From Gammaproteobacteria bacterium (lineage in GTDB: Bacteria > Pseudomonadota > Gammaproteobacteria > Steroidobacterales > Steroidobacteraceae), in the NCBI GenBank assembly GCA_028293805.1, contig JAQGOC010000377.1, positions 1-33,183 of the forward strand: 33,183 bases of DNA, written 5' to 3'. The position numbers and the translations under genes were made by a program. This document shows, piece after piece, positions 4,351 to 26,331 of this stretch. A model generated the notes under the pieces. The model was not told the origin of the DNA. It saw only the letters and a list, made by a program, of their open reading frames with translations, and ran no database searches. Every line of letters starts with the position of its first letter. Positions within the stretch are counted from its first letter, which is position 1.

Positions 4351-4368
4351 TATACTCGACTCAAGTCG
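4351..4368 (+). promoter_or_regulatory. Site A: TATACT abutting a CGACT-N2-AGTCG palindrome
   Basis: TATACT (4351-4356) is directly followed by CGACTCAAGTCG (4357-4368), a perfect 5-bp-arm inverted repeat. It lies 29 bp before the TonB receptor ATG, in the divergent gap with the kinase gene. The same arrangement recurs at 26314-26331 and, less perfectly, on the minus strand at 23752-23735. TTGACA occurs at 4322-4327 but 23 nt from TATACT, so the -35 is uncertain. I infer a -10 box plus operator for the TetR regulator at 25448-26083. Confidence 0.6.
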
Positions 4369-4397
4369 TATACAAGGTCCGGGAGAAGAATAACTCT

Positions 4398-6701
4398 ATG
4401 CGCACACCGAGCCACTGTTTGCACGTGAGATTCCGCAGCCCCGCTCTCGTAAATTTCCGCAGTCCCGCTCTAACGTTACTATTGCTGGTGTGCGGCCTGA
4501 CGGCGGCGCCGGCGCGCGCGCAAACGGCGCCCGCGGCGGCGGAGCTCGACGAAATCATTGTCACTGCGGAAAAGCGCAGCGAGAACCTGCAGAACGTGCC
4601 GCTGAGCATTACAGCGGTGACGGGCGTCGCGCTGGAAGAAAGCGGCGCGCGGACCGTAAGCGATATCTCGAGGCTCGTGCCGGGGCTGTCTGTTTCCAGT
4701 ACCGGTCCGGGACAGAGCGAGGTGATCGTCCGAGGCATTTCCTCCGGCATCGCTCTGAGCATTCTCGGCAACGTCGCGACGGTCGGGTACTACCTCGACG
4801 AAACGCCGGTATCCGATCTGTCCCGCAATCTAGATGCCGCGCTGGTCGACCTCGAGCGCGTCGAGGTGCTGCGCGGCCCACAGGGCACGTTGTACGGCAC
4901 GAGCTCGATGGGAGGCGCGATCCGGTACATCTCTCACAAGCCGGACCTGAATGAATTCTCGGCGAGATCCAGTCTCGCGTTGTCGCACACGGATCACTCC
5001 GGGGAACTCAACCGCGAGGCCGACGGCGTCGTCAACATTCCGCTGATCCCCGGAAAACTGGCCGTTCGCGCGGCTGCATTCTTCCAGGGCTGGGGTGGCT
5101 ACATCGATCGCTACGCGATCGACCCGACCAACTACGCGCTGATCGATCCGAACGTGCCCGTCAGACGGAACGTCAACTCATCGAGGCTGGGCGGGGCGCG
5201 CATCTCCGTGAAGTTTCAGCCCAACGACTACCTCGAGCTGCTGCCCTCCGTTCTGTTTCAAAAGACGGCCGTGGATGACCCGTCCACGATCGACAAGCCA
5301 CCGGGATCGCTCGACAACGCGATTCAAGTACGGGATATCGAAGAATGGCAGACCGATGTTGTCAAGCTCGCCAATCTGACCGCGACGGTCAAGTTGCCGC
5401 AGTTCGAGATCGTCTCCTCGACCTCCTACTACGATCGGGTGCCGGACAGCATCGAGGACTGGTCCAAGCTCGCCTCGTACGTGCTGGGGGAAGCGCCCTA
5501 TCCCTTCTACCAGTTCACGCGCTTTTCCCAGAAGAGCTGGACCGAGGAGCTGCGAGTATCCAAGAGCGCGGGGCCGCTGCGCGGTGTGGTCGGCGTGTAC
5601 TACCAGACCCGCAACAACGGCCTGATCATCGACGATCCGGTCTCTCCCGGATACAACGAAAGGTTCGGCACGAACGTCGACACATTCTTCACCACCGACG
5701 AGACGACCAAGACCCGCGACCGCGCGGCCTTCACGGAGCTCAACTACGACGCGACGTCGAAGTTCACCATCACAGCCGGAGTGCGTACGTCGAAGACCAC
5801 GCAGACGCACGAGTCGGTGTCGGACGGATACTTCAATGGCGGCCCCTCGTCGGACAATAACACGACTTCTTCCAGAAGCACGACGCCCAAGTTCGGAATT
5901 TCCTACCAGGCGACACCAGACGCGCTGTTGTACGCGACCACGGCAAAGGGAGCTCGGCCGGGCGGCTCGCAGCACTTCGTCCCCGTGCCCTTCTGCACAC
6001 CCTACTTGGAGGGGCTTGGACTGACGCAAGCGCCGAAGGAATATGCTCCCGACAGTTTGTGGAGTTACGAGATCGGCTCGAAGAATCGCCTCTACGGCGG
6101 GCACTTGGTCGTCAATGCATCCGCGTACTACATCGACTGGAAGACGATCCAGCAGGAAGTCAACCTGGGCTGCGGGTTTCCCATCATCAGCAACTTTGGC
6201 AGAGCCAAGAGCAGAGGCGCGGAGCTCGAGAGCACGCTGCGTCCAATGCCGGGACTGACCTTGTCCGCAAACGCCGCGTATACGGAAGCTACTGCGGAGA
6301 GCGAGACTTTCGGTGTCCCGGTCCAGATCGGCGACCCTCTTCTCAACACGCCCAAATGGGCGTACGGCGCTGCCGTGGACTACACCCACCAGATCAGCCC
6401 GGCGTTCGAGCTCATCAGCCATATCGATTCTAGCTACACAAGCTGGACCGCCGCGGTGTTCGACAAAACGAACCCGTTCTATCGCCGGCCGCCATACAAC
6501 CTGGTGAATCTCAACGTCGGATTGCACAGCTTGTCGGGGCATTGGCGCGCCAGGCTGTTCATGGACAATGTCACGAACCGCCACGCCGAAACCGGCCAGT
6601 ACTTCTCCAATACGGGCAACAGCGACTTTCCGCCGGACATTCGCGCCTTGGGGCTGAACAGGCCCCGCACCACCGGGATTCGCGCCGAGTACGGGTTTTA
6701 G
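4398..6701 (+). CDS. TonB-dependent outer-membrane receptor
   Basis: 767 aa, a typical receptor length. A signal peptide ends around ARA-Q42 after a hydrophobic core LTLLLLVCGLTAA. The plug domain begins with DEIIVTAEKRSENLQNVPLS (51-70), continues through VRGISSG and LRGPQGTLYGTSSMGGAIRYIS, and the beta-barrel ends in a terminal aromatic residue (EYGF). Such receptors import bulky or scarce substrates with TonB/ExbBD energy; the substrate is unknown. It is first in an operon with a PQQ dehydrogenase (4 bp gap) and an MFS carrier, so it probably brings the dehydrogenase substrate into the periplasm. GGGAGAAG (4381-4388) is the likely ribosome site. Site A lies immediately upstream. The N-terminal extension before the signal core contains an eight-residue duplication (FRSPALVN / FRSPAL). 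Confidence 0.95.
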   Translation: MRTPSHCLHVRFRSPALVNFRSPALTLLLLVCGLTAAPARAQTAPAAAELDEIIVTAEKRSENLQNVPLSITAVTGVALEESGARTVSDISRLVPGLSVSSTGPGQSEVIVRGISSGIALSILGNVATVGYYLDETPVSDLSRNLDAALVDLERVEVLRGPQGTLYGTSSMGGAIRYISHKPDLNEFSARSSLALSHTDHSGELNREADGVVNIPLIPGKLAVRAAAFFQGWGGYIDRYAIDPTNYALIDPNVPVRRNVNSSRLGGARISVKFQPNDYLELLPSVLFQKTAVDDPSTIDKPPGSLDNAIQVRDIEEWQTDVVKLANLTATVKLPQFEIVSSTSYYDRVPDSIEDWSKLASYVLGEAPYPFYQFTRFSQKSWTEELRVSKSAGPLRGVVGVYYQTRNNGLIIDDPVSPGYNERFGTNVDTFFTTDETTKTRDRAAFTELNYDATSKFTITAGVRTSKTTQTHESVSDGYFNGGPSSDNNTTSSRSTTPKFGISYQATPDALLYATTAKGARPGGSQHFVPVPFCTPYLEGLGLTQAPKEYAPDSLWSYEIGSKNRLYGGHLVVNASAYYIDWKTIQQEVNLGCGFPIISNFGRAKSRGAELESTLRPMPGLTLSANAAYTEATAESETFGVPVQIGDPLLNTPKWAYGAAVDYTHQISPAFELISHIDSSYTSWTAAVFDKTNPFYRRPPYNLVNLNVGLHSLSGHWRARLFMDNVTNRHAETGQYFSNTGNSDFPPDIRALGLNRPRTTGIRAEYGF
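4431..4470 (+). repeat. Short tandem duplication within the signal-peptide region
   Basis: TTCCGCAGCCCCGCTC (4431-4446) recurs with one change as TTCCGCAGTCCCGCTC (4455-4470), a period of 24 bp, in frame. It duplicates the peptide FRSPAL before the hydrophobic core of the TonB receptor signal peptide, which suggests a recent slippage or duplication event. Confidence 0.6.
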
Positions 6702-6705
6702 AGTC

Positions 6706-9243
6706 ATGCAAACATCCCGGCTGCTGTTGATCACGTGCGCCGCTGCGCTTGCAACGGCTTCAGGTGTCGCAGGCACGACGCCCGCCGGCGCGGCAGCGGA
6801 CACGGATTGGCCGTACATCGGGCGCAACAGCGAGGCCCAGCATTTCAGTCCTCTCGCTCAGATCAACGACCACAATGTTCAGAAGCTAGGCCTGGCCTGG
6901 TATGCCGACATCGACTCCCAGGACGGCCTCGTGGGTAATCCCCTGGTAGCCGGCGGAGTCGTTTATCAAACCGGCCCCGGAGCACGCATCTACGCCCACG
7001 ACGTGCGTACCGGGCACCAGCTGTGGACGTTCGATCCGCAATCCAAGTTTGTAGGCGCGATTGCGACCTACTTCGGCAACCGATACACACGCGGGCTCGC
7101 GCTTTGGCACGACTACGTCTACGTCGGTACGGGGGATTGTCGACTGGTGGCCGTCGACGGGCACACTGGCCACGAAGTGTGGGAAGCGCAGGCGTGCGAT
7201 CCAAAAGAGGCCGACACGATCACGGGCGCGCCACGGGTGGGCTCGGACAAGATCTATATCGGCAATTCGGACATCGATGCTGGCGCCAACCGAGGACACG
7301 TCGACGCGTTCGATGCCGCGACCGGCCGGCATTTGTGGCGCTTCTATACGATTCCGGGCGATCCGTCCAAGGGCTTCGAATCGAAAGCCATGGAGATGGC
7401 GGCCAAGACTTGGGGGGACGAGTGGTGGAAAAGCACCGGAGGCGGCAGCGTCTGGGAGGCTTTCACTTACGATCCGGTGCTGAACCTGCTGTACATCGGC
7501 ACGGATGGCGCGAAACCGCTCAATCCGCTCGAGCGCGGCGCCCATCGGGGCGACGAGTTGTTCACCAACTCCATAGTAGCGGTGAACGCCGACACCGGCG
7601 AATACGTCTGGCACTACCAGACGACGCCGAATGATGCGTGGGATTTCAATTCGAGCCTGCACATCGTAGTTGCCGATATGGCCATCGGGGGCGTCAAGCG
7701 CCGTGTGGTCATGCAGGCTCCGAAGAATGGATTCTTCTATGTGCTCGACGCGAAAACCGGCAAGCTCCTGTCAGCGCAAAACTTCGTTCCTGTTAATTGG
7801 GCCTCCGGCATAGACATGAAGACCGGGCGCCCGATAGAGCTGCCCGAAGCGCGCTACTACGCCCGACCGAACAAGCAGGCGGTCGTCGTGCCTGGGCCTC
7901 TTGGCGCGCACAACTGGCACGCCATGAGCTACGACCCGCTGACCGGCCTTGTCTACATTCCAGCCATGGAAACGGCCGCTTTATGGGAGGTGACCACGGG
8001 ACCGAGCACGGTGCTCATCGGCGGCGGGCACTTGCACATCGACCAGGGAATCGGCCGAGACACCCGCGTGGATAGCAAGATCAGCGGGAAATTGATCGCC
8101 TGGGATCCCCGCACTCAGAAGGCGCGCTGGCATCAGGATCTCGAGCTGCCGATCAACGGCGGCGTGTTGTCGACCGCCGGCAATCTGGTGTTCCAGGCGA
8201 CCGCGACCGGCGACGTGTTCGCCTATCAGGCCGATACCGGCAAGCGAGTCTGGTCGATGTATACGGGATCGGCTGCGCAGGCCGCGCCCACCACGGTGAT
8301 GATCGACGGCGAGCAGCTGATTCTCTTTCCCATCGGCGCTGGCGGCGCCATGTCGAATTGGGCTCAGTTCGCCTCCAACGAAAAGTCCCGGGGTCCGTCC
8401 CGACTGCTGGCATTCAAGCTGGGCGGAACAGTCGAGCTGCCGCCGTACCGCCATAGCGAGATATTTCCACGGCCTCCGCGTTCGCGGCCCGATGCCAAGC
8501 TGGCGCGAAAGGGTGCTGGTCTGTTTGAAGACAAGGGCTGCGTGGCATGCCATGGAGAGGCGGCGATTCGCGATACGGGCCGCGTGCCCGACCTCCGCAA
8601 GGCTTCTGCGGAGGTACACGACACATTCGCGGCGATCGTTCTCGGCGGTCGGGCAGCGAAAGGGATGCCATCGTTTGCGGGCGCGGCGAGCGCGGACGAC
8701 TTGGCAGCGCTGCAGGCGTTTGTCCTTTATCAGGCATGGAATGCCTATGACGCTCAGGAAGCAATCAAGGCTAAGCCTCGCGCGGACGCGGCGAGCGCCG
8801 CGGATACGGCGAACTCCACGGTGCCAGCCAGGTCCCCCGCAGGGAAGACGCCGTTACTACTTAACGGCCAGATGCAATCGACAAAGGGATTCACGCCCTT
8901 GCCGCCCTGGCCTACCAGCATGGTGAAGTGGGGCGACGAGCATCACGCTTTGCGGACAGTGTACAGCGGTGAATTCACCGTAGACCTGTATGAGGCGAGC
9001 GACGGCGAGGTCGAGGTTGTGGATCAACCTTACGACGAGTTCGTACACGTCCTACACGGCTTTTGCACGCTGACTCCCCAGGGAGGCAAGCCACAAACGT
9101 ACCAGGTCGGGGACGTGTTTGTCGTGCCAAAGGGGTTCACCGGAACCTGGGAGGGCAGGCAAGGATTCCGCGAGCTGATTGTGATCGAGACGAGCGCCTA
9201 CAAGCGCGCCGTAGCGGCAATTTTTCCCGATGCCAAGAAATGA
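6706..9243 (+). CDS. PQQ-dependent quinohemoprotein dehydrogenase with C-terminal cupin domain
   Basis: 845 aa, three domains after a signal peptide (cleavage near residues 30-32). Residues about 34-575 form the eight-bladed PQQ propeller, opening with DWPYIGRNSEAQHFSPL and carrying repeated W-motifs such as DAATGRHLWRF and DADTGEYVW; D313 in PNDAWDF is the likely catalytic Asp. Residues about 597-685 are cytochrome c: CVACH (612-616) with axial Met654 in KGMPSF. Residues about 735-830 match a cupin_3/DUF861-like domain (DEFVHVLHG then GDVFVVPKGFTGTWEG). PQQ-cytochrome c fusions are type II alcohol dehydrogenases oxidising alcohols in the periplasm; the added cupin is unusual. The residue two after D313 is Asn, not the Asp typical of lanthanide enzymes, and no adjacent Cys pair is seen. 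The gene starts 4 bp after the TonB receptor stop and overlaps the MFS gene by 14 bp. Confidence 0.92.
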   Translation: MQTSRLLLITCAAALATASGVAGTTPAGAAADTDWPYIGRNSEAQHFSPLAQINDHNVQKLGLAWYADIDSQDGLVGNPLVAGGVVYQTGPGARIYAHDVRTGHQLWTFDPQSKFVGAIATYFGNRYTRGLALWHDYVYVGTGDCRLVAVDGHTGHEVWEAQACDPKEADTITGAPRVGSDKIYIGNSDIDAGANRGHVDAFDAATGRHLWRFYTIPGDPSKGFESKAMEMAAKTWGDEWWKSTGGGSVWEAFTYDPVLNLLYIGTDGAKPLNPLERGAHRGDELFTNSIVAVNADTGEYVWHYQTTPNDAWDFNSSLHIVVADMAIGGVKRRVVMQAPKNGFFYVLDAKTGKLLSAQNFVPVNWASGIDMKTGRPIELPEARYYARPNKQAVVVPGPLGAHNWHAMSYDPLTGLVYIPAMETAALWEVTTGPSTVLIGGGHLHIDQGIGRDTRVDSKISGKLIAWDPRTQKARWHQDLELPINGGVLSTAGNLVFQATATGDVFAYQADTGKRVWSMYTGSAAQAAPTTVMIDGEQLILFPIGAGGAMSNWAQFASNEKSRGPSRLLAFKLGGTVELPPYRHSEIFPRPPRSRPDAKLARKGAGLFEDKGCVACHGEAAIRDTGRVPDLRKASAEVHDTFAAIVLGGRAAKGMPSFAGAASADDLAALQAFVLYQAWNAYDAQEAIKAKPRADAASAADTANSTVPARSPAGKTPLLLNGQMQSTKGFTPLPPWPTSMVKWGDEHHALRTVYSGEFTVDLYEASDGEVEVVDQPYDEFVHVLHGFCTLTPQGGKPQTYQVGDVFVVPKGFTGTWEGRQGFRELIVIETSAYKRAVAAIFPDAKK

Positions 9244-10567
9244 CCAGTCAGCGTGCGCGGAGGCGCGCACGCTGCGCGCGGTGAGCGTCAGGCTGCTGCC
9301 GCTCCTCTTCGTCCTCTACATATTCAACGTCCTCGATCGAACCAACGTCGCTATCGCGGCGCTGCAGATGAATCACGAGCTGAGCTTCAGTCCGGCAGCG
9401 TTTGGAATCGGCGCGGGAATATTTTTTCTGGGCTACTCGCTGTTCGAAGTGCCGAGCAACCTGATTCTCGCCCGCGTCGGTGCGCGACGTTGGATCGCCT
9501 CCATCATGATTACGTGGGGTATGCTGGCTAGCGCCATGATGTTCGTGCACACGACGACGCAGTTCTATGTGCTGCGGTTCTTCATCGGAGTGGCGGAGGC
9601 GGGTTTTTTTCCGGGAGTCATCTTCTATCTGGGCCAATGGTTTCCAGCGGCGCAACGAGCCACGGCGACGTCGCGCTTCATGATCGCAATCCCCCTCGCT
9701 GCCGCCTTCGGGGGGCCGCTCGGCGGGGCGCTGCTGGGGCTCCGCGGGCTGTGGCATCTCTCAGGATGGCAATGGCTGTTCGTCATCGAGGGAATCCCGT
9801 CCGTGATCCTGGGCGTCGTCACTTTGACGTACTTGCAGGACACGCCGCAGAAGGCGCGCTGGCTATCAACGGAACAACGTGCCTGGCTTGTCGATCGCAT
9901 TCGGTCGGATAGTGCGCGCTCCGTGACTGCGCACGGTCGACCCACCCTGCAGGCGATCGCCCATCCACTGGTATGGATCCTTGCGCTCCCCTATTTCCTG
10001 GCGCTGACGGTGTGGTACGGCTACGTGTTCTGGGCTCCACTCGTGGTCAGCGAAGCACTTCACTCGAGCAACGGCGTGACGGGGCAGATCATCGGCGCGA
10101 TCGCGGCGTTGTCCGCGGTGGCGATGCTGGCCGCCGGGGCAAGCTCGGATCGACACTCGGAACGGTACTTGCACGCCGCATTTGGAATCGGCCTGGCCGG
10201 GATCGGCTTCCTCGGGGCCGCGCTCATTCCGCAGCCGCTGCTGCGGGTCGCGGCATTGGGACTCGTATCCATAGGCTCCTTGGGTTTCCTGGTGCCCTTC
10301 TGGTGTCTGCCAACGATGCTCTTCAGTGGAACGACGGCGGCGGTGGGGATCGCGCTCGTGAACTCGATCGGGAGCATCGGGGGCTTCGTCGGGCCGGGCA
10401 TCATCGGCGCAATGAAGAATGGCTCTACCGGAGATACTCGTTCGTTCACTCTTCTGGGCATCACGGCGCTGATAGCGAGCGCGCTATGCGTCGCAGCACG
10501 TTCTTTTGCGGCTTTCCGGTCGCCGTTTTCGGCAGCGGCCCGAAGATCACCCGCTTCGGAGCCTTGA
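9230..10567 (+). CDS. MFS transporter, anion:cation symporter (ACS) type
   Basis: 445 aa with about 12 hydrophobic segments. The first helix carries LFVLYIFNVLDRTNVAIAAL (26-45), the D-R-x-N signature of the ACS family (phthalate, tartrate, glucarate and other organic anions), and helix 2 has GYSLFEVPSNLIL (69-81), also typical. It sits in the inner membrane and probably imports the acid made by, or related to, the upstream PQQ dehydrogenase; the substrate is inferred. The start overlaps the PQQ gene by 14 bp, a sign of translational coupling. Its 3' end overlaps the convergent acyl-CoA ligase by 107 bp, so the predicted last helix (residues 407-429) is encoded opposite the ligase C-terminus. 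Confidence 0.92.
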   Translation: MPRNDQSACAEARTLRAVSVRLLPLLFVLYIFNVLDRTNVAIAALQMNHELSFSPAAFGIGAGIFFLGYSLFEVPSNLILARVGARRWIASIMITWGMLASAMMFVHTTTQFYVLRFFIGVAEAGFFPGVIFYLGQWFPAAQRATATSRFMIAIPLAAAFGGPLGGALLGLRGLWHLSGWQWLFVIEGIPSVILGVVTLTYLQDTPQKARWLSTEQRAWLVDRIRSDSARSVTAHGRPTLQAIAHPLVWILALPYFLALTVWYGYVFWAPLVVSEALHSSNGVTGQIIGAIAALSAVAMLAAGASSDRHSERYLHAAFGIGLAGIGFLGAALIPQPLLRVAALGLVSIGSLGFLVPFWCLPTMLFSGTTAAVGIALVNSIGSIGGFVGPGIIGAMKNGSTGDTRSFTLLGITALIASALCVAARSFAAFRSPFSAAARRSPASEP

Positions 10568-12020
10568 ACCGCGCGAGTACGGCGCGCACGTGCTCGATCA
10601 ACTCCTGCTCGCTCACGACCGCTGCGTCCTTCGTCGTGACGAATGCCACGGGAATTTCGCCCCATTTCTCGTCGGGCGCGGCGACTACCGCTGCCTCGAG
10701 AATCAGGGGATGCGTTGCCAACACGCGCTCTACTTCGACGGATGAGATGTTTTCTCCACCGGAAATGATGATGTCCTTGGCTCGGTCCTTGATTTCAATG
10801 TACCCATCCGGATGCATGACCCCGAGGTCGCCGGTCCGGAACCACCCGTCCGGGCAGGCTGCTTCCGTCGCCATCGTGTCGCGATAGTAGCCCAGCATCA
10901 CGTTATTCCCGCGGAGTGCGATTTCCCCGATCGCCGCTGCATCGGAAGGCACGTCACGCCCGTCAGTGTCGACTACGCGGATTTGCTGGGAGATGACGTT
11001 GCCCACGCCCTGCCGCGCCTTCAGCATTGCCCGCGCCGCGCTACCGAGCTTGCTCCAGTCGCTGCGCCATTCGCACACCACGGCAGGTCCGAATGTCTCG
11101 GTCAAGCCGTAAAGATGGGTGACGTCCATTCCTAGCTCCGCGAGCCGTTCCAACAGCGCCGGCGAGGGCGGCGCTCCTCCGGTCGCGACGTGGACAGGAC
11201 GCGGCGGCTTACCCCTGCCCGCCTCCGCATCCCAGATCGTCATCGCAAGAACCGTAGGCGCCGCACACAAATGCGTAATCCCGGACTCTCGGATATGGCC
11301 CCAGATCACGGCTGGCGCGGGACTGCGAAGGCAGTGATGCACACCGCCAACCGCGGTGACACCCCAAGTGAAGGTCCAGCCGTTGCAGTGAAACATCGGC
11401 AGGGTCCACAGGTAGTGGGAATCGCCGTCCAGCTGCATGTGAAGCGCCATGGCCAATGCCTGCAGGTATGCACCTCGATGGTGATACATCACACCCTTGG
11501 GATGCCCGGTGGTTCCGCTGGTGTAGTTGATGGCCAGCAACTGTCGCTCGTCGGTGACCTGCGCCGAGTACGGCGTCGCTCCGGCGATTTTCGCCTCGAT
11601 TTCGTCGTCCGCACCGCCCGCGCGCAGCATCTTGAGCCCGGTGGCAACTTGCCGCGCGCATTCGGCCCCGGCGGCTGCAAGCTCATGGTCGTAGATCAAT
11701 ACGGTGCAACCCGCGTGACCGAGTATGTAAGCGAGGTCAGAGGCCGTAGCGCGAGTGTTCAAGGCCACCAGCACGCCGCCGGCGAACGGCACTGCGTAGT
11801 GAGCCAGGAGCATGATGTGCGTGTTGCCGGCAAGAACACCGATTCGATCGCCGGGCTTTACGCCCGACGCCCGCAATGCACCCGCGAGCTTCAATGCGCG
11901 CTCGAGAAACTGTGCATAGGTGTAACGGGTCTCGGCATCGATCACCGCGACGCGGTCGCCGAAGACGCGCGCAGAGCGCCACAGAAATGCGGTCGGAGTC
12001 AGCGGCTCGAAGCTAATCAC
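10461..12020 (-). CDS. AMP-forming acyl-CoA ligase (medium-chain/DmdB-like)
   Basis: 519 aa. The ATP-binding loop YTSGTTGHPKG is at 166-176, LYGLTETFGP forms the second core motif, and GWFRTGDLG, KDRAKDIIISGGENIS and the C-terminal TATGKPQK (catalytic Lys503) follow. The overall pattern (FHCNGWTFTW, SGGENISSVEVE) resembles ligases for short/medium or aryl-alkyl acids. The start is GTG at 12020, eight bases inside the DUF35 gene (GTGATTAG), with AAGGA about 8 nt upstream. It is the last gene of a ten-gene minus-strand run and probably activates an acid intermediate or the released side chain. The exact substrate is unknown. Confidence 0.93.
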   Translation of the reverse strand: MISFEPLTPTAFLWRSARVFGDRVAVIDAETRYTYAQFLERALKLAGALRASGVKPGDRIGVLAGNTHIMLLAHYAVPFAGGVLVALNTRATASDLAYILGHAGCTVLIYDHELAAAGAECARQVATGLKMLRAGGADDEIEAKIAGATPYSAQVTDERQLLAINYTSGTTGHPKGVMYHHRGAYLQALAMALHMQLDGDSHYLWTLPMFHCNGWTFTWGVTAVGGVHHCLRSPAPAVIWGHIRESGITHLCAAPTVLAMTIWDAEAGRGKPPRPVHVATGGAPPSPALLERLAELGMDVTHLYGLTETFGPAVVCEWRSDWSKLGSAARAMLKARQGVGNVISQQIRVVDTDGRDVPSDAAAIGEIALRGNNVMLGYYRDTMATEAACPDGWFRTGDLGVMHPDGYIEIKDRAKDIIISGGENISSVEVERVLATHPLILEAAVVAAPDEKWGEIPVAFVTTKDAAVVSEQELIEHVRAVLARFKAPKRVIFGPLPKTATGKPQKNVLRRIARSLSAP

Positions 12021-12348
12021 TGTGAAGCATCCTTACAAACTTCGGTGGCGCATTCAAATCCGTACGCTCGATCTCGATCTGCTGCCCTATGGTCAGCTCA
12101 ACGGGAACCCGTACCATCATGCGCACGCCATACCCAACGTCTACCAATGCAATTCCGTACGGCAAGTCCTCTGAGCAATCTCCAGATGGGGGGCGATGGA
12201 CGACAGTGAACGACCACACGACCGCGGCACCGCTGACTTCCCGTGGTGAGACATTGCTCGATCCGCATTTGGCACAAAAACCGCGAGGCAGCGCATCGCC
12301 AGACCCGCATTGCGCGCACGTCTCGAGCAGGACTCTACAGCCGCCCAT
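12013..12348 (-). CDS. DUF35 OB-fold protein with rubredoxin-like zinc ribbon
   Basis: 111 aa from the ATG at 12348, with GGGGAG 8 nt upstream; an upstream TTG in the same frame overlaps the thiolase stop and has no ribosome site. Four cysteines (C11-x2-C14 and C25-x2-C28) form the zinc ribbon, followed by an OB-fold with VVWSFTVVH and PYGIALVDV typical of the family. DUF35 proteins act as obligatory partners of thiolase-fold enzymes; in steroid side-chain breakdown the DUF35 part of ChsH2 activates the aldolase Ltp2. The gene directly follows a thiolase-like gene lacking the nucleophilic Cys, which fits that pairing. The pairing is family knowledge and context; the reaction here is inferred. 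Confidence 0.9.
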   Translation of the reverse strand: MGGCRVLLETCAQCGSGDALPRGFCAKCGSSNVSPREVSGAAVVWSFTVVHRPPSGDCSEDLPYGIALVDVGYGVRMMVRVPVELTIGQQIEIERTDLNAPPKFVRMLHSD

Positions 12349-12362
12349 CAGTGATTCTCCCC

Positions 12363-13511: not shown

Positions 13512-13942
13512 GCCCCTCCTCGCCGCGGAACCGCCCACGTGCCTCCTCGCTGCAAAACCACGACGACTTCCGCGGCGCATTGACCGTCTTCGTTTCGTAC
13601 CACGAATTCATAACTAAGCGCACTGGGCGTCACCTCGACCAGATGACCTTCGATTGTGGGTGCGGAGCCGACACTGACGGGCCGCACGAATTTGACCTGC
13701 GCGCGCCCACCCTCGAGTGCCCGGGCATCGAGAGCTGCTTCCAGGGCTTGCCATATCGGCGCGATCACGAGCGTGCCGAACGCGATCGGGTGCCCGAAGG
13801 TGGTGCCGGCAGCAAAGCCCCCATCCGTGTGGATGGGATTGTGGTCGTTCGTCAGCTCGGCGTAGATGGCGATATCCGACTTGGTAATTCGCCGCGGAGG
13901 AACGCAGATCGGGCTCGGAAGCAGCGCATCGGACCCGTCCAT
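13508..13942 (-). CDS. MaoC-like (R)-specific enoyl-CoA hydratase, catalytic subunit
   Basis: 144 aa. The hotdog-fold hydratase-2 motif YAELTNDHNPIHTD (27-40) has the catalytic D33 and H38 pair, and FGHPIAFGTL follows as in active MaoC hydratases. It would add water to a 2-enoyl-CoA. It starts 4 bp after another hotdog gene that lacks these residues, suggesting an alpha2beta2 enzyme like ChsH1-ChsH2 in cholesterol side-chain degradation. Its stop overlaps the thiolase-like GTG start, so hydratase and presumed aldolase are translationally coupled. The substrate is unknown. Confidence 0.9.
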   Translation of the reverse strand: MDGSDALLPSPICVPPRRITKSDIAIYAELTNDHNPIHTDGGFAAGTTFGHPIAFGTLVIAPIWQALEAALDARALEGGRAQVKFVRPVSVGSAPTIEGHLVEVTPSALSYEFVVRNEDGQCAAEVVVVLQRGGTWAVPRRGGA

Positions 13943-13946
13943 TCTT

Positions 13947-17870: not shown

Positions 17871-17896
17871 CGTCCATTCATGTGCGGATTCGCCGC

Positions 17897-19626: not shown

Positions 19627-22020
19627 TCAGAAGCGATAGGTCGCATCCAGCCCAAAGGTGCGCGGTACTCCGCGGTGACGGTAGTCGAACCCGATGCTCT
19701 GCAGGTCGGCCGCGCTCGTCAGATAGAACCTGTCGGTCATGTTACGTATCCAGGCCCCTACTTCCCAGTTCGCCTCCACCGGAGAATGCAACATGACCCG
19801 CGCATTCAGGATGGCGTAGCCGTCTTGTGCGATGCGCTCTGCGTTGATCAGCTCGAAATACTGCTTCGACGCATAGTTGCCATCGAAATGAAGCGTCAGG
19901 CCCGCCGACTGCCACATCACGACATTCCAATCGGTGGACAGCGTACCGGAAAATTTCGGGGCATTCGGCAACGTATGACCGCTGACATCAATGGTGCCGC
20001 CAGCGAGTTTGCCCTCCTGGATCTTGGCATCGAGAACCCCAATCCCGACGCGCACGGTCAGGGGGCGTACAGGACGAGTGACGAGCTCGAGCTCGCCTCC
20101 GTCGATCTTCGATTTGCCAAGGTTGATGACCGGCTGCTGGCCGGTCGGCCGGATGTCGATGATCTGCTGATTCTTGTACTGATAGTGAAAGATGGCCCCA
20201 TTCAGCTGCAGGCGCCTGTCCAGCCACTGCGTTTTCCACCCCGCCTCGATGGAATCAAGGGTCTCAGGCTTCACGCTCGTGAAGTCGGTGATCGAGAACA
20301 GAAACTGGCCGTTGAACGCGCCTGAGCGATAGCCGCGACTGTAGCTGACATAGAGCAGCGAATCGGCCGTGAGTGTGAAGTCGATGCCCGCCCGGCCGCT
20401 GACCGCGGTGTTGTGCAAGGCCTGGCTATTTCTGGCGTTGACGATAGCATCATAGTTCGGCGAGCCCGGGAGCGCTTCAACCGGAGTCCACGGCGCATTC
20501 GGATCGATAGCGAGCGAGCCGGGAGTGATGCTGGCAATCGGCACATCGTCACTGCCGCGAAGCTGGGCGAGGGCGTTCTTTTGAACCGCATTGTCATGGT
20601 TGTAGCGCACCCCGCCGCGCAGCTTCACGAGCTTGCTCGCCGCATAGCCCATGTCCGAGTACACGGCCCAGCTGTTGCGAATCTGGTCGAAGGCGTTGTA
20701 GTAGCGACAGCCCGCGTTGATCAGGCTGCCGACCGAATAGCCCTGCCCGGCACCGAACGAGGCATCCGCGCAGTCCTGGTAATTCAGCACGCCATCGCCG
20801 TTCACATCCAGGAAGTTAAATAGCTGGTTCTCAGTACTGTTATAGACGATTTCGTGTTGGTAGTAGGCGCCCGCGATGTAGCTGAATACGGCATCTCCCG
20901 GCGAGGTGAGACGCAGGTCCTGCGTCACCTGGCGGGTCTTGCCGGTGTACGGCGACTTGAAGATGTCGAAGGCTGCCCCGTCCGTCGCCTCGGGGTTGAG
21001 GACCGAGCCCTCGTCCCAGGAGGTGATGGAGGTCAGCGCCACCGCGCTTGACAGATTCCAGTTTGCGGTCAATGCCACCGCCTGGTTGTCCTGGCGCCGC
21101 CGCGGTGTGTAGTTCTGGCCGACCTGGTCATTCGCCAGAGGGGTGCCAGTCGCGGTGCCGTCGCTCGTGCGATAGTAGCCAGCGCCTGCGATTCCGCCCG
21201 GCGCGATGCTGCCGGCGATGATCGCGTAGTCCTGCGGGTCCTGCATGCTCTTCGAATAGCGCAGGGTCAGATCGAGATCATCAGTAGCCTTGTACAACAG
21301 ACTGAGTCGCACGCCGTATTGATCGATGCCCTCCAGATCCGGGTAGCCCGCCAGCACGTTGTGTACGAAGCCGTCGGATTTCGTATACGTGAAGGCGAGA
21401 CGCACCGCGAGGCGATCCGGAATCAGTCCCGCCTGAAAGGCGCCTCCGGCCTCCTTCCGATCGTAGTTGCCCACTCCCAGCTTGATGTAACCCTCTTCGT
21501 CAAAGCCCGGCTTGTGGGTGATGAAGTTGATCGCGCCACCGGTGGTATTCTTCCCATAGAGCGTGCCTTGGGGGCCGCGCAGAACTTCGATGCGCTCGAG
21601 ATCGTACATCTCTACGCCAAAGAGCACGACGCTCCCCTTGTAGACTTCGTCGATGTAACTTGCGACCGGACTCGACTGGCTGAGGCTGTAGTCGAACATC
21701 GACACGCCGCGCAGCGAGAAGATCGGCGAGCCTTCGCCGATGATGCCATCGACCTGCAGGTTTGGAATCTGCGTGACGAGATCTGACGGCGTATCCAGCT
21801 TGAGCTCCCCGAGCTGTGCCCCGGTGAGTACGGTCACCGACACTGGTACGCTCTGCAGAGTCTCGGCGCGCTTCTGTGCTGTCACCACAACTTCCTCGAG
21901 AGCGCTTCCATCCATTGGCGTGGGAGCCTGTGCGTGCACGACGCTTGCGAAGAGCCCACAAGCGGCCATTGCGTGAAGTGCGATTGGGCAGCGGCGTGGA
22001 CGAGCGCTGAGTGAGGTCAT
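19627..22020 (-). CDS. TonB-dependent outer-membrane receptor with an EF-hand-like loop
   Basis: 797 aa from the ATG at 22020, chosen because GGGAG lies 4 nt ahead and a signal peptide (core CPIALHAMAACGLFASVVHA) follows directly. Upstream Met codons at 22059 and 22116 lack a ribosome site. The plug starts with LEEVVVTAQKRAETLQSVPV and contains FSLRGVS and LRGPQGTLYGKNTTGGAINFIT; the barrel ends GLDATYRF with a terminal Phe. Residues 405-416 read DVNGDGVLNYQD, a full 12-residue calcium-loop pattern, probably in an extracellular loop. It follows an aldehyde dehydrogenase and precedes an acyl-CoA ligase, so it probably imports the compound this operon degrades; the substrate is not readable from sequence. 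Confidence 0.95.
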   Translation of the reverse strand: MTSLSARPRRCPIALHAMAACGLFASVVHAQAPTPMDGSALEEVVVTAQKRAETLQSVPVSVTVLTGAQLGELKLDTPSDLVTQIPNLQVDGIIGEGSPIFSLRGVSMFDYSLSQSSPVASYIDEVYKGSVVLFGVEMYDLERIEVLRGPQGTLYGKNTTGGAINFITHKPGFDEEGYIKLGVGNYDRKEAGGAFQAGLIPDRLAVRLAFTYTKSDGFVHNVLAGYPDLEGIDQYGVRLSLLYKATDDLDLTLRYSKSMQDPQDYAIIAGSIAPGGIAGAGYYRTSDGTATGTPLANDQVGQNYTPRRRQDNQAVALTANWNLSSAVALTSITSWDEGSVLNPEATDGAAFDIFKSPYTGKTRQVTQDLRLTSPGDAVFSYIAGAYYQHEIVYNSTENQLFNFLDVNGDGVLNYQDCADASFGAGQGYSVGSLINAGCRYYNAFDQIRNSWAVYSDMGYAASKLVKLRGGVRYNHDNAVQKNALAQLRGSDDVPIASITPGSLAIDPNAPWTPVEALPGSPNYDAIVNARNSQALHNTAVSGRAGIDFTLTADSLLYVSYSRGYRSGAFNGQFLFSITDFTSVKPETLDSIEAGWKTQWLDRRLQLNGAIFHYQYKNQQIIDIRPTGQQPVINLGKSKIDGGELELVTRPVRPLTVRVGIGVLDAKIQEGKLAGGTIDVSGHTLPNAPKFSGTLSTDWNVVMWQSAGLTLHFDGNYASKQYFELINAERIAQDGYAILNARVMLHSPVEANWEVGAWIRNMTDRFYLTSAADLQSIGFDYRHRGVPRTFGLDATYRF

Positions 22021-22094
22021 TTGACTCCCGATGAGTGTGCGGTTGAGGAGGTTATCCATCGGTATGGGGCGGGCGCTGCCGGCTCGCACGCGGT

Positions 22095-23636
22095 TCAGGC
22101 CGCGATGTTGATGCACAGAGACTTGGACTCGAGGCAGGAGTACACGGCCTCGCGGCCCAATTCCCGCCCCCAGCCGGACTGCTTGTAGCCGCCGAATGGC
22201 ATCGCAGGATCGAGCACGTTGTGGCAGTTGACCCAGACGGTGCCAGCTTTGAGCTTTGACGCGAGGCGGAAGACCTTGCTCACATCGGCGGTCCAGATGC
22301 TCGCGGCGAGCCCGTAGATGGAGTTATTGGCAATGCGCGCGACGGCTTCCAGGTCATCGAAAGGCTGGGCCACGACGACGGGGCCGAAGATTTCCTCGCG
22401 CACGATTGACATCGATTCGACGACATCTGTGAACACGGTAGGCTCGACGTAATACCCGGGTGCCGATAAAGCGCGCCCACCTGCAATAGCGCGCGCTCCG
22501 TCGGTGAGCCCTTCGTTGACATACTTCATGACGCGTTCCCGCTGCGTGGCGGACACGAGTGGGCCCAGTTGCGAGGTGGTATCGAGTCCCGGACCGATTT
22601 TCATGGCCTTGGCCTGCTCTGCGACTCCTTCCATGACCGTGTCGAAGTGCCGCCGCGCCACGTAGAGACGCGAGCCGGCGCAGCACACCTGGCCCTGGTT
22701 GAAAAAGATGGCACTCGTTGCGCCCGCAATGGCCTGGTCCACCTTCGCATCGTCGAGAACGATCGTCGGCGATTTACCGCCCAGCTCGACCGTCACTTTT
22801 TTCATGTTGCCGGCCGCCGCGCGTACGATCAGTCGCCCTACTTCGGTCGATCCCGTGAAAGTGATCTTGTCGACACCGGCGTGTGCGGCGAGAGCCGCGC
22901 CGGCAGTGGGACCCATTCCGGTGACAATGTTGAAGACGCCCTTGGGAAACCCCGCCTCGACGACGAGCTCGCCCAGCCGCAATGCCGTCAGCGGAGTCTC
23001 CTCAGCGGGCTTCAGGACCACGGTGCAACCGGCCGCCAACGCCGGAGCCGCCTTCCAGGTGGCGAGCAACAGCGGAAAATTCCAGGCGATGATCGCGCCG
23101 ACCACGCCGATCGGTTCACGCTGCGACAGACCTACGTACTCCTGCCCCGGTACCAGGGACCCGGAGAGCGGCAGAGTCTGCCCCTCGAGCTTGGTGGGCC
23201 AGCCGGCCATGTAGCGCCACACTTCCACGGCGTGCTTGACATCAACGTGGCGCGCGATGATCACCGACTTGCCGTTGTCGAGAGCCTCCAGCTGCGCAAG
23301 ATCGTCCGCGTCGCGCTCGATCAGGTCCGCAAGACGATGCAGCAGCCGCTCCCGATCGACGGGTTTCATCCGCGACCAGTCGGAATCGTCGAAGGCACGA
23401 CGGGCTGCGTCGACCGCCAGATCGATGTCGGCGGCGTCGCCTTCGGCCACGTGGGCAATCACCCGGTCGCTGGACGGGTCGCGCACGTCGAAGGTCCGCC
23501 CGCTGCGGGCTTCGACCCAGGCGTTGTCGATCAATAGACGGCGTGCAGCGCCCAGAAACCGGGCGTTTGCGCCACTGATCCGGGTCAGGTCGTTCTCGAG
23601 CGCGGCGGCACGGACCGCCTTCGTTGCGGTATTCAT
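22095..23636 (-). CDS. Aldehyde dehydrogenase (NAD(P)+-dependent, ALDH1/2-like)
   Basis: 513 aa from the ATG at 23636, preceded by AGGGGAGG with 4 nt spacing, which decides the start over a longer frame to 23813. Catalytic residues are N186 (AWNFP), E284 (VTVELGGKSP) and C318 (NQGQVCCAGSR). KPAEETP, FTGSTEVG and the terminal FGGYKQSGWGRELG are typical of the broad-range ALDH1/2 group. It would turn an aldehyde into its acid in the cytosol, possibly one released by the PLP/kinase module or made from an alcohol. It is the first gene of the ten-gene minus-strand run, and operator-like site C lies about 100 bp upstream of its start codon. Confidence 0.95.
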   Translation of the reverse strand: MNTATKAVRAAALENDLTRISGANARFLGAARRLLIDNAWVEARSGRTFDVRDPSSDRVIAHVAEGDAADIDLAVDAARRAFDDSDWSRMKPVDRERLLHRLADLIERDADDLAQLEALDNGKSVIIARHVDVKHAVEVWRYMAGWPTKLEGQTLPLSGSLVPGQEYVGLSQREPIGVVGAIIAWNFPLLLATWKAAPALAAGCTVVLKPAEETPLTALRLGELVVEAGFPKGVFNIVTGMGPTAGAALAAHAGVDKITFTGSTEVGRLIVRAAAGNMKKVTVELGGKSPTIVLDDAKVDQAIAGATSAIFFNQGQVCCAGSRLYVARRHFDTVMEGVAEQAKAMKIGPGLDTTSQLGPLVSATQRERVMKYVNEGLTDGARAIAGGRALSAPGYYVEPTVFTDVVESMSIVREEIFGPVVVAQPFDDLEAVARIANNSIYGLAASIWTADVSKVFRLASKLKAGTVWVNCHNVLDPAMPFGGYKQSGWGRELGREAVYSCLESKSLCINIAA

Positions 23637-23734
23637 TGGACCTCCCCTTTTCCTAGGCGTGGGCTTCAACGGTCTGAAAGTTCGCCGAACGCCGAAATGC
23701 TTGACAACATCGGCGGCGTCTTGGACGATAAACA

Positions 23735-23752
23735 CGAATATAGTCGAGAATA
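23735..23752 (-). promoter_or_regulatory. Site C: TATTCT abutting CGACT-N2-TTTCG-like half palindrome
   Basis: On the minus strand TATTCTCGACTATATTCG reads toward the aldehyde dehydrogenase operon. Its left half is identical to sites A and B apart from one base in the -10-like box; the right half keeps TCG but is degenerate. Downstream, GTTTAT and a terminal TCC/ACC are also shared with site B. I infer a weaker operator for the same regulator. No good -35 is seen at 16-18 nt. The site is also in the gap upstream of the divergent desaturase gene. Confidence 0.5.
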
Positions 23753-23838
23753 AATGCCGCTGCCACAATTTTTTGACGTCGGCGGCGCTTTGGCTCGACA
23801 CTCTCTCGAGCAATCAGCGGCCACGCGGAGAAGTCAAA

Positions 23839-24873
23839 GTGCTCACACCAACATTTCGCAACCACGCGTCCTACCTGCTCTATCCGGCGTTGCTGGGCGG
23901 GGCGCTGCTGCTGTGGTCCTCACTCTGGCTGGGCATCGGGTGGGACGCCGATGTCGCTATGCAGTTGGTGTACTGGGCGTTTCTCGCGCTGCTGGTGATT
24001 CTGGAGCGCCTGCTGCCCTTCGAGCCGGCGTGGAACCGCAACGACGGACAATTACGCAACGACATCGTCCTGTCGATCCTGACCATTGCGCTCAACTCCA
24101 TCGCAACAATCGTCTGTCTCTGGGCAATCGAGTGGGCAATCAGCACGATCGAGCCGCTCGTATCGTTGAAAGTGTGGCCCGCCCACTGGCCATTTTATGT
24201 ACAGGTCATTCCAGGCATCATTCTCTGGGACCTGGGCAATCACCTTGCGCACCGCTGGGCGCACAAAATTCCGCTGCTCTGGCGCTTCCACTCCGTGCAC
24301 CACAGCGCGCCGCGGTTGAGCGTCATCAATGCGGGCCGCTTCCATCCGATCGACATCGTCAAATCGGTCGTAATCGGTTCGCCCATTCCCATTCTCCTGG
24401 GTGTGCCGGCGGAAATTGCCGAGTGTTATGCGGCACTTTATCTCTTTGGCGGAATTCTGACGCACGCGAACATCAATCTGCGCTGCACCTTTTTCAGCCG
24501 CTTCATCAACACGCCCGACCTGCATCGCTGGCACCACAGTCCCCACCCCGTGGAAACAGACACGAACTACGGCGAGGTCACCGTGGTGTGGGACCGACTA
24601 TTCGGCTCGTACGTTTTCCATGCGCGCGGCTCGCGCCGCAACCTGGGGCTCGGATACACGGTGCCCGTCTCACGTCATCTCCTCGAAGCCATTTGGCACC
24701 CGTTGACTCCTGCAGGTCATCATGCTGGACCCGAGAGCCGCATCGTGTCCCTGCCCGAGGGCGTGACCGCGGTAGCCGATATCGCACTCACGGAGTTCCT
24801 GGCCGCGGGGCCGCCAGCTCACGGATCCGAACGAGTCGCCGGCGTTGTGCACGGCATTCAGGTGAAACCATGA
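23839..24873 (+). CDS. Fatty acid hydroxylase / sterol desaturase superfamily membrane protein
   Basis: 344 aa from a GTG at 23839, with GGAG 8 nt upstream; the frame is open further left, but there it is antisense to the aldehyde dehydrogenase. Hydrophobic segments near residues 13-33, 40-58 and 75-103 place it in the inner membrane. The eight-histidine di-iron ligand set is present: H138-x3-H142, H151-x2-H154-H155 and H229-x2-H232-H233, with H209 as a further candidate. Members hydroxylate or desaturate lipids, sterols or carotenoids with O2. It is divergent from the acyl-CoA operon and shares a 4-bp ATGA overlap with the next lipoprotein gene. It could start the attack on a hydrophobic substrate or modify membrane lipids; the sequence cannot decide. 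Confidence 0.9.
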   Translation: MLTPTFRNHASYLLYPALLGGALLLWSSLWLGIGWDADVAMQLVYWAFLALLVILERLLPFEPAWNRNDGQLRNDIVLSILTIALNSIATIVCLWAIEWAISTIEPLVSLKVWPAHWPFYVQVIPGIILWDLGNHLAHRWAHKIPLLWRFHSVHHSAPRLSVINAGRFHPIDIVKSVVIGSPIPILLGVPAEIAECYAALYLFGGILTHANINLRCTFFSRFINTPDLHRWHHSPHPVETDTNYGEVTVVWDRLFGSYVFHARGSRRNLGLGYTVPVSRHLLEAIWHPLTPAGHHAGPESRIVSLPEGVTAVADIALTEFLAAGPPAHGSERVAGVVHGIQVKP

Positions 24874-25451
24874 TCCGCGCCGCCATTGTCGGCCCATCTA
24901 AAATCGCCAGGGCGCGACTGCGCGGGTCTTTCCTCGTGGTCGTCGGCTGCCTCGTCGCTTGCGGGACGGTAGCCTGCTCCCGCAATCAACAGGCGTCCAG
25001 GGTCGATCTGGAGGCGGAAAAGGCCGCACTGCTGAAACGGGACAATGAGTGGCAGGTCGCGGTCGCGGAAAAGAAGGATGCCGCGAAGATCGCTGCCTTC
25101 TTCACGACCGATGGAATCATGTTCGGCTCGGGCGAAGCGACCGTTGCCGGCCGCGAAGCCCTCACGAAATCCGTCGCGGACCTGGTCGCGGGCCCCGCCT
25201 TTAAGGATGAGTGGACCTGGAGCCGGGTGGAACTGTCCCCCGACGGCCACCTTGCCTACCTCGTCGGCACGACCAACATCACGACGTACGACGGTTCCGG
25301 GCATCCCGTGACCAATCACGCTCGACTGATCAACGTATGGCGTAAAGATCCGGACGGAGTATGGCGGTGCATCGTCGATGCGTGGGTGGATCCGCCCGCG
25401 GCGGACACACCTGCGAGCGCAAACGCCGCCCCCGGGGGCGCCAGCCGTTAG
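24870..25451 (+). CDS. NTF2-like (DUF4440/SnoaL-type) lipoprotein
   Basis: 193 aa. The ATG overlaps the desaturase stop (ATGA), so the two are translationally coupled. The N-terminus has a Arg-rich start, a hydrophobic core FLVVVGCLVA and two possible lipobox cysteines: C31 (LVAC) and C36 (TVAC). The mature part, KRDNEWQVAVAEKKDAAKIAAFFTTDGIMFGSGEATVAGREAL and later LINVWRKDPDGVWRCIVDAW, is the cone-shaped NTF2/DUF4440 fold, which binds small hydrophobic ligands or acts as an isomerase or hydrolase-like scaffold. A periplasmic ligand-binding or helper role beside a lipid hydroxylase is plausible but unproven. It ends tail-to-tail with the TetR gene, overlapping by four bases. Confidence 0.88.
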   Translation: MIRAAIVGPSKIARARLRGSFLVVVGCLVACGTVACSRNQQASRVDLEAEKAALLKRDNEWQVAVAEKKDAAKIAAFFTTDGIMFGSGEATVAGREALTKSVADLVAGPAFKDEWTWSRVELSPDGHLAYLVGTTNITTYDGSGHPVTNHARLINVWRKDPDGVWRCIVDAWVDPPAADTPASANAAPGGASR

Positions 25452-26083
25452 CCGCGCTTCTTTCTGGGAAGTTTCGCCGGGAAGTACGAGCCCAGATAGG
25501 CGACGGCGCCCCGCTTCGCCTCCTGCGTCATTTCCTCCGTGATGAGGCCGTGCCCGATCATCGACAGGCAGAACATGAGGTCGGCGATCTCGACGGAGCG
25601 GAAAAAGACTTCCGAGCGGTTGGGAACGACGGGCAACACGAAGAAGTTCGCGACCTGATCCTCGAAGATCCGCCCGATGACCACGTCGTTCTGCCGGTCC
25701 CGCATCTTCAATTCGGGCAGTGTCTTCGGGCCGATGAGCAGCTGCCGAGCGGAAGGCTTGCGCAGATAGAACTCCCCCGCCCGGTCAAGGAGGATCTCCA
25801 CCACCTCCGACCACGCGCCGACCGCACTGCGAATCGGCGCGGTCATGATCGCCTGCAGTTCCTTGTCGTACAGCGCGACCAGGCTCGCGTACACATCGAC
25901 TATGTTGAGATAGAAGTGGTAGGCGGATCCCTTCGGCACCTTGGCTTGGAGCGCCACGTCACCAAGGCTGATCGCGTCCATTTCCCGCGATTGCAGCAGC
26001 GTTTCCGCCGCCGCCAGCAACTTGTCGCGCCGGGCAATACCGCGCTGGCGCAGCGAGCTTTTCCGAGTCCCTAGCAGAGCCAC
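25448..26083 (-). CDS. TetR-family transcriptional regulator
   Basis: 211 aa from a GTG at 26083, which has GGAGG 9 nt upstream. A TTG at 26092 is in frame but directly abuts that ribosome site and cannot be used with it. The N-terminal helix-turn-helix is seen in KLLAAAETLL, then ISLGDVALQAKVPKGSAYHFY (about 38-58), a standard TetR DNA-reading helix. The C-terminal ligand domain is not assignable to a ligand. The gene is divergent from the permease/PLP/kinase operon, and a palindromic operator candidate (site B) overlaps that operon's promoter. Matching sites at the two other catabolic operons suggest that it represses all three and is released by the substrate or a CoA-ester intermediate; this is inference. 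Confidence 0.92.
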   Translation of the reverse strand: MALLGTRKSSLRQRGIARRDKLLAAAETLLQSREMDAISLGDVALQAKVPKGSAYHFYLNIVDVYASLVALYDKELQAIMTAPIRSAVGAWSEVVEILLDRAGEFYLRKPSARQLLIGPKTLPELKMRDRQNDVVIGRIFEDQVANFFVLPVVPNRSEVFFRSVEIADLMFCLSMIGHGLITEEMTQEAKRGAVAYLGSYFPAKLPRKKRG

Positions 26084-26291
26084 GTCGTTCAACCTCCATA
26101 TTGGGTTAATTCACCGCTTCCGCTGCGGCTCGCGAGTCGGCCGGCGATCGGCCCTGCGATTGACAATTCGCAAACGCGACGCGTCCGCTGCAGAAGGTAA
26201 CATTCACTACGGTCATCATGTCCACAACCGGGGATTCAACGCAAGTCGCCGATTCCAGCGTGGACACGTTGCGCACCTCGGCCGCAAAGGG

Positions 26292-26331
26292 TTGACATCC
26301 AATTACCGAGACCTATACTCGACTAGAGTCG
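26292..26331 (+). promoter_or_regulatory. Site B: sigma70 promoter with abutting TetR-type operator
   Basis: TTGACA (26292-26297) and TATACT (26314-26319) are separated by 16 nt, a strong promoter for the permease operon. CGACTAGAGTCG (26320-26331), a perfect palindrome with 5-bp arms around two bases, directly follows the -10 box and covers the expected start of transcription. A repressor bound there would block initiation. The tetR-like gene lies just upstream and divergent. The predicted 5' leader is about 44 nt to the GTG at 26370. Confidence 0.7.

Follow-up and report, generated by a model that had tools for sequence, protein, structure and literature searches.

Are three operons of catabolic genes, which share one contig of a Steroidobacteraceae gammaproteobacterium (NCBI GenBank assembly GCA_028293805.1, contig JAQGOC010000377.1), governed by a single regulator through a common operator? 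The question arose from an original prediction made on the stretch of 33,183 nucleotides analysed here in full (hereafter the window), according to which one palindrome recurs ahead of each operon and ties all three to a TetR-type protein. We find that the three sequences stand at the coordinates and on the strands proposed for them, and that the palindrome they share is real and stronger than was claimed, since it extends over 24 bp and an independently built matrix ranks these three sites first. We therefore favor, with a probability of about 0.82, one shared operator at three operons that is predicted to be read by the local TetR protein, because the rarity of the site in the genome, its co-occurrence with the TetR gene, the conservation of two of the three sites and leave-one-out prediction all agree. 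The features at issue are:

4351..4374, plus strand: operator A, TATACTCGACTCAAGTCGTATACA, with 3 mismatches to the 24-mer and a matrix score of 23.5; the start codon of the receptor gene TonB1 lies 23 bp downstream.
23729..23752, strand undefined: operator C, matrix score 31.9, conserved in the relative G033.
26314..26337, plus strand: operator B, TATACTCGACTAGAGTCGCGTTTA, matrix score 29.4; its left arm is a -10 hexamer and the permease start lies 32 bp downstream.
25448..26092, minus strand: TetR-family regulator (Pfam; orthologues in relatives), the proposed reader of the three operators.

Sites collected from relatives reveal the operator to be a 24-bp pseudo-palindrome, TATACTCGAYTNNARTCGAGTATA, of the general form TATACTCGA(C/T)T-NN-A(G/A)TCGAGTATA, whose most constant columns are those of the CGA core (32, 31 and 32 of 32 in the column counts from 16 sites). 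TATACT and GTTTAT form its left and right outer arms. The hexamer that had been described as abutting the palindrome is thus present as an arm of the operator, and serves as a well-spaced -10 only at B; likewise, the similarity noted beyond the core is genuine as regards the shared GTTTAT, which is itself part of a repeat of 24 rather than 18 bp. It is B, at a distance of 222 bp from the start of tetR, that adjoins this divergent gene, and not C, two genes intervening between C and tetR. Operator C occupies a gap with 92 bp to the aldehyde dehydrogenase 2 (ALDH2) gene on one side and 86 bp to a hydroxylase-like gene on the other. Its right half is degenerate in the window, as predicted, but not inherently, given that the same half reads CGACTATAGTCG and is intact in G033.

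The site is rare in the draft genome from which the window derives (G000; 5,770,228 bases in 392 contigs, 89% complete). Searching the window with the 18-mer TATACTCGACTNNAGTCG at up to 3 mismatches returned six matches, namely the three sites read on both strands, against a mean of 0.11 in dinucleotide shuffles of the window. A pattern search of G000 at 0-2 mismatches recovered four matches, all inside the window, to which the motif is confined at this stringency rather than being scattered over the genome. Exactly 3 mismatches gave 10 further matches, 2 in the window and 8 elsewhere; as a reversed control pattern yields 10 in total in G000, the eight outside the window are at chance level. 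We also derived a symmetric matrix from 12 sites of same-genus relatives, further metagenome-assembled genomes (MAGs), sphingomonads, Shewanella and Vibrio, leaving out the sites of G000 and of its closest relative G033. Over the window this matrix places C, B and A on top, with the scores listed above, and the fourth place at -0.6; in 20 Mb of simulated order-2 Markov DNA it finds no place scoring at least 22 and 2 places scoring at least 18, and across 44 further loci, 205,310 bases in sum, its scores go no higher than 14.1. Two candidate operators were rejected: G000:C225:10125 (score 14.1), which is positioned within a mechanical open reading frame (ORF), and G051:C16 (3 mismatches, score 12.7), for which no TetR orthologue was found.

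The site also travels with the regulator. Among 59 related genomes (60 including the window's own), a TetR of 49-90% identity is encoded in five (G033, G030, G010, G003 and G018), and the 24-mer at up to 3 mismatches occurs in all five of these versus one of the 54 others (G051, at three mismatches); three of the 54 (G020, G036 and G042) have weak TetR matches only and no site. A scan of 84,980 species genomes uncovered 26 loci with a relative of the window TetR (38-89% identity), from MAGs (the five relatives above included), sphingomonads, Shewanella, Vibrio, Photobacterium and Pseudomaricurvus. For each of these we removed the locus and its near relatives from the matrix and took the best of 60 permuted matrices as the threshold: the top site exceeds the permuted matrices in 20 of the 26 loci, and 13 of these 20 sites stand 79-215 bp upstream of tetR. 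The training sites had first been chosen by motif and palindrome searches in the same set of loci, one per locus, so that the near-identical L045 and L046 are counted twice in the scan; six loci with leave-one-out matches (L043, L055, L057, L058, L060 and L062) were never in the training list. In distant TetR loci the site reads approximately ACTCGAATTNATTCGAGT. At L049 (9771-9818) half-sites repeat every 12 bp ahead of the operator, which may bind more than one dimer.

A palindromic operator near the regulator gene is the arrangement of the TetR/AcrR family, here recognized by sequence only. The C-terminal ligand/dimer domain of the window TetR matches PF17928 (TetR_C_22) at 37.8 bits (cut-off 26.4), and its closest solved structure is 3bni, at only 27.5 bits. 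Of 26 aligned TetR sequences, 25 retain PKxSxYHF in the recognition-helix region, the exception being L059 with PLASSYHF.

Comparison with G033 showed the same gene order as in the window: DUF4440, oxidase, kinase, pyridoxal-phosphate (PLP) enzyme, permease, site B, tetR, DUF4440, hydroxylase-like gene, site C and the receptor gene TonB2. Sites B and C align between the two together with their TTGACA boxes. The expectation that the sites stand beside orthologous operons is thus borne out for B and C, in one further species only, and site A is without a close counterpart. In the G033 locus (L042, G033:C25) ALDH2 has gone from between site C and TonB2 (~8650-8830), its first codons alone remaining, and TonB2 directly follows the site. 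At 3431-4721 of the same locus the class III PLP gene matches as two pieces in different frames, separated by a gap of about 22 residues, reflecting a broken gene or an assembly fault.

When a loosened motif was searched in 18 genomes, we inspected six match regions: four sphingomonad sites sharing GATACTCGA, one already known site of S. flavalba and one place in an ORF of G000; the remaining matches include weak ones in Vibrio and Shewanella, at or below control level. All four sphingomonad sites (L068-L071; matrix scores 19.4, 23.7, 14.4 and 11.1) have as neighbors an orthologue of the window oxidase (59-61%) and a DUF4440 gene (35-41%); a TonB receptor adjoins three of the sites, and near each is a paralogous TetR (31-35%) with P(S/A)SSTYHF in the recognition-helix region. 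This TetR/operator pair may have duplicated together with its target.

The three sites differ in how they are placed relative to TTGACA boxes, all on the plus strand:

26292..26297, plus strand: TTGACA -35 of operator B, 16 bp from TATACT; the same layout is seen in 6 related loci.
4322..4327, plus strand: TTGACA near operator A, 23 bp upstream of it; a shifted layout like the plus side of C.
23701..23706, plus strand: TTGACA near operator C, 22 bp upstream of it and conserved in G033.

It had been proposed that only B has a well-spaced -35, which these distances uphold; the idea that TATACT is a suitably spaced -10 throughout is rejected, B alone having TTGACA at 16 bp. TTGACA is found 16 bp from TATACT at B, in G033 (L042) and in the B-type loci L045, L046, L047, L049 and L054, and 17 bp from the operator in L064 and L068-L070, making 11 of 28 sites at 16-17 bp; a distance of 22-23 bp is seen at A and, on the plus strand, at C, as well as at the G033 copy of C. 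As TTGACA stands 16 bp from TATACT at B-type sites, the left arm of the operator there is the -10 itself. At A and C a candidate -10, GAC-N-AT at 17-18 bp, read by eye, would abut the operator. This plus-strand geometry at C suggests that the site is divergent and probably serves the hydroxylase-like gene in addition to the ten-gene minus-strand run toward which it had been said to point; a weak minus-strand promoter-like match also overlaps operator C.

The genes of the window that fall under these sites, or lie next to them, are as follows, the minus-strand run of operon C comprising ten genes with ALDH2 first (PQQ, pyrroloquinoline quinone; MFS, major facilitator superfamily):

4398..6701, plus strand: TonB-dependent receptor TonB1, operon A (Pfam PF00593/PF07715).
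6706..9243, plus strand: PQQ alcohol dehydrogenase, cytochrome c and EutQ-like cupin fusion, operon A (Pfam; TIGR03075).
9230..10567, plus strand: MFS transporter, operon A (PF07690; nearest NCBIfam HpaX at 290 bits, below the cut-off of 615).
10461..12020, minus strand: AMP-dependent acyl-CoA ligase (Pfam).
12013..12366, minus strand: OB-fold protein of the ChsH2 C-terminal type (PF01796).
12363..13580, minus strand: thiolase-like protein (Pfam).
13508..13942, minus strand: MaoC dehydratase (Pfam).
13947..14339, minus strand: unnamed ORF within the run, with no Pfam match.
14330..16474, minus strand: ADP-forming acyl-CoA synthetase-like protein (profile matches).
16437..18002, minus strand: aldehyde dehydrogenase 1, ALDH1 (Pfam).
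17897..19594, minus strand: second AMP-dependent acyl-CoA ligase (Pfam).
19627..22116, minus strand: TonB-dependent receptor TonB2 (Pfam), whose counterpart adjoins site C in G033.
22095..23636, minus strand: ALDH2, phenylacetaldehyde-dehydrogenase-like (StyD profile match).
23839..24873, plus strand: fatty-acid-hydroxylase superfamily protein (PF04116; GTG start).
24876..25451, plus strand: DUF4440/SnoaL-like protein (Pfam).
26370..27713, plus strand: amino acid/amine permease, ethanolamine-permease-like, operon B (Pfam; TIGR00908 match).
27695..29026, plus strand: class III PLP enzyme, operon B (motifs DEVQTGLGRTG and AKGFSGG).
29032..30087, plus strand: APH-fold small-molecule kinase, operon B (motifs HGDLVPEN and IDFD; PF01636 at 94.8 bits, cut-off 23.2).
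30103..32094, plus strand: FAD oxidoreductase, SpdH-like, operon B (twin-arginine-like N-terminus).
32095..32607, plus strand: DUF4440 protein, operon B (21.6 bits, slightly under the cut-off of 25.2).

Profile scores refine several of these assignments. The PQQ fusion exceeds the cut-off of TIGR03075, the PQQ-dependent methanol/ethanol dehydrogenases (504.7 bits against 480.05), ALDH2 matches StyD (NF045735) at 689.8 bits, under the curated cut-off of 850, and the permease matches TIGR00908 at 298.9 bits, under the cut-off of 381.75, so that it counts as a related transporter and is not assigned to that family. The PQQ fusion is 845 aa long; alignments with its top six relatives in the order stop at residue 686-727, and G247 has a cupin-like match that stands apart, about 5 kb from the PQQ gene. 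The best solved matches of the window PLP enzyme are 4ppm, which we take to be PigE, and putrescine aminotransferase; the phospho-lyase 5g4i is not among the best 60 of its 149 solved matches. The nearest solved chain to the kinase is 6ef6 (160 bits), presumably an (S)-1-amino-2-propanol kinase. The oxidase has spermidine dehydrogenase 7d9j as its best solved match (181 bits; 7d9f-7d9j are homologous), and the family is probably broader than spermidine, as six matches to the window oxidase at E 1e-60 or better occur in the one relative G010.

To these we add the genes that neighbor TetR elsewhere, as found by tblastn with window and G030 proteins at the 26 TetR loci: a TonB receptor is present at 16, a class III PLP enzyme at 12, a kinase at 6 and the oxidase at 2, with kinase and class III PLP enzyme together at 6 of the 26. 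Of all solved structures, the phospho-lyase 5g4i is the closest to the PLP enzymes of Novosphingobium rosa (456 bits) and Vibrio hannami (317 bits), a likeness that along with the kinase points to amino alcohols being phosphorylated and then converted to the aldehyde by elimination. The V. hannami locus (L061) has a kinase-PLP enzyme fusion at 10865-13216, a 783-aa ORF near TetR, and a palindrome at 10782-10805 in the gap ahead of it. In N. rosa (L051) the kinase/PLP/TetR set is followed by a catechol-type intradiol dioxygenase gene (11042-12136); the motif match at 11006 is weak, its score of 7.9 falling below the permuted maximum of 19.6. The best interpretation of the regulon is amine or amino-alcohol uptake and oxidation under a TetR repressor, with the substrate a prediction. 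An aryl-ethanolamine would be a guess, prompted by the likeness of ALDH2 to phenylacetaldehyde dehydrogenase and by the phenylacetate-CoA ligase that some relatives, including G010, have in the cluster.

From these data we infer that TetR binds the three sites and represses the operons behind them. As a local catabolic repressor, its dimer would bind the 24-bp pseudo-palindrome, with a half-site of about TATACTCGA, at three target promoters: those of TonB1-PQQ-MFS (A), of permease-PLP-kinase-oxidase (B) and of the gap from which ALDH2 and the hydroxylase-like gene diverge (C). Such binding would block RNA polymerase, since the -10 element and the start region are either overlain by the operator or directly next to it, and a metabolite of the pathway would release TetR from DNA. 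The substrate might then cross the outer membrane via TonB1 and TonB2 and be oxidized in the periplasm by the TAT-type (twin-arginine) SpdH-like oxidase and the PQQ dehydrogenase; the permease, kinase and PLP enzyme would bring in an amine or amino alcohol and act on it, and the resulting aldehyde would be carried on to acyl-CoA. More tentatively, and with odds that we place below even, TetR, its ACTCGAnTnnAnTCGAGT-type operator and their targets could represent an undescribed regulon of Alpha- and Gammaproteobacteria, which in this organism would govern a novel pathway for a bulky natural amine, with two TonB receptors for uptake, periplasmic oxidation by the TAT-exported SpdH-like enzyme and the PQQ-cytochrome c-cupin fusion, kinase and PLP enzyme acting on the amino-alcohol part and CoA-dependent enzymes on the rest.

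Several observations weigh against the shared operator read by TetR. The N-terminal helix-turn-helix of the window TetR matches PF00440 (TetR_N) at 21.3 bits (E 0.00024), slightly under the Pfam cut-off of 24. Six of the 26 TetR loci (L050, L052, L063, L065, L066 and L067) have no site above the permuted matrices, the sequences of L052 and L066 stopping near tetR; 14 of the 28 sites lack an exact TTGACA at 16-17 or 22-23 bp in the register counted; and the sphingomonad site of L071 scores just 11.1. What speaks for site A is its sequence and position: the best relatives of its PQQ gene among 396 genomes of the order are 49-55% identical, no site occurs in the six best PQQ loci, some of them widened to 12-20 kb, and no TonB1-PQQ pair was seen in the window's order at the widened loci, where the G419 and G365 stretches end within 4 kb. 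Further, a 20-kb stretch of G010 (L113, G010:C17:34001-54000) carries the oxidase (73-74%), DUF4440 (62%), a class III PLP enzyme (27-29%), the kinase (42%), an aldehyde dehydrogenase, a TonB receptor and a phenylacetate-CoA ligase, and yet no operator within its 20 kb (best score -2.6), though G010 has TetR and an operator site on another contig. The G365 cluster places a PQQ relative (51%) next to a TonB2 orthologue (70%), again with no site there. These two clusters cut both ways: their gene links are independent of the operator and so support a shared pathway, and the missing site implies that the operator is not always kept. Finally, the promoter of G030-type loci is directed toward an AraC gene, which implies that the regulon differs between genomes.

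The alternative that survives best accepts the shared operator but attributes it to promoter copying or regulatory convenience, the operons serving different substrates and operon A perhaps being a recent recruit. We regard this as unlikely, though far from negligible. Close counterparts of the operon A genes are missing from the TetR loci of relatives, and TetR is kept in relatives with quite different genes (MoaF, phenylacetate-CoA ligase and amidohydrolase); against this, uptake genes and genes for aldehyde, alcohol or amine oxidation are found in all three operons and can be chained, the three operons lie within 33 kb with no site at up to 2 mismatches in the remaining draft genome, and the PQQ relative adjoining TonB2 in G365 links operons A and C. 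Hence, of the proposition that the operons form one regulon and consequently one pathway, the regulon is the best-supported part; the single pathway is likely but unproven, and least secure for operon A.

A second alternative, to which we give little credence, is that another regulator reads the palindrome, such as the AraC-family protein adjacent to it in several relatives, and that TetR is a mere neighbor. The site does lie between an AraC gene and tetR in L044-L047, L049 and L054, and in these loci other than L044 a TTGACA-N16 promoter points at araC. However, tblastn found no AraC in the site-carrying TetR loci of G033, N. rosa, Shewanella and V. hannami, no such AraC occurs among the Pfam-scanned window genes, and the site goes with TetR in 5 of 5 genomes versus 1 of 54. 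Dyads of 24 bp are moreover typical of TetR dimers and not of AraC proteins, with their direct repeats. Equally improbable is an activating role for TetR, or a mode of action at A and C unlike that at B. The operator is shifted by 6-7 bp between the two placements (TTGACA at 22-23 bp at A and C, 16 bp at B), but it overlaps the -10/+1 region in both, and dimers of the TetR family bound over that region usually block transcription. A chance likeness of A+T-rich promoters can be dismissed on the shuffles, the genome search and the matrix scans, for although the outer operator arms resemble -10 hexamers, it is the CGA cores that are the most conserved columns.

The shared operator read by TetR offers a tag whose use is not confined to one genus: with no gene information to guide it, the motif led to the window's oxidase in four sphingomonad genomes and can accordingly help to collect the genes of an as yet unassigned amine or amino-alcohol pathway genome by genome. 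The promoter-repressor pair could likewise be used for finding the inducer and hence the substrate. A search of titles and abstract openings, with most subscription papers outside it, turned up no paper on the regulator, the operator or the gene set described here. Sphingobium PheR is described as belonging to the IclR family. By its kinase, nearest to 6ef6, the window resembles the aminoacetone-utilisation (RMM/Aaum) set of Mycobacterium, from which it differs in having no shell-protein gene among its Pfam-scanned genes and a PLP enzyme that is not nearest to phospho-lyases; the paper on (S)-1-amino-2-propanol kinase is among the references of PMC8007038. The class III phospho-lyases (5g4i and the ethanolamine-phosphate phospho-lyase 6tor) have their likeness in the PLP enzymes of N. 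rosa and V. hannami, not in that of the window. With SpdH, the spermidine dehydrogenase, the likeness is that of a best solved match to the window oxidase, and spermidine oxidation is predicted at most. A TetR repressor over a catabolic island is itself a familiar kind of system, and in this respect the window is akin to PsrA, LiuQ, FadP and RutR, the small regulons of catabolic operons under TetR-type regulators presented in PMC5343134; it departs from them in its predicted substrates, as the regulators in the accessible text of that article are not for amines or amino alcohols, and neither "ethanolamine" nor "amino alcohol" appears in that text.

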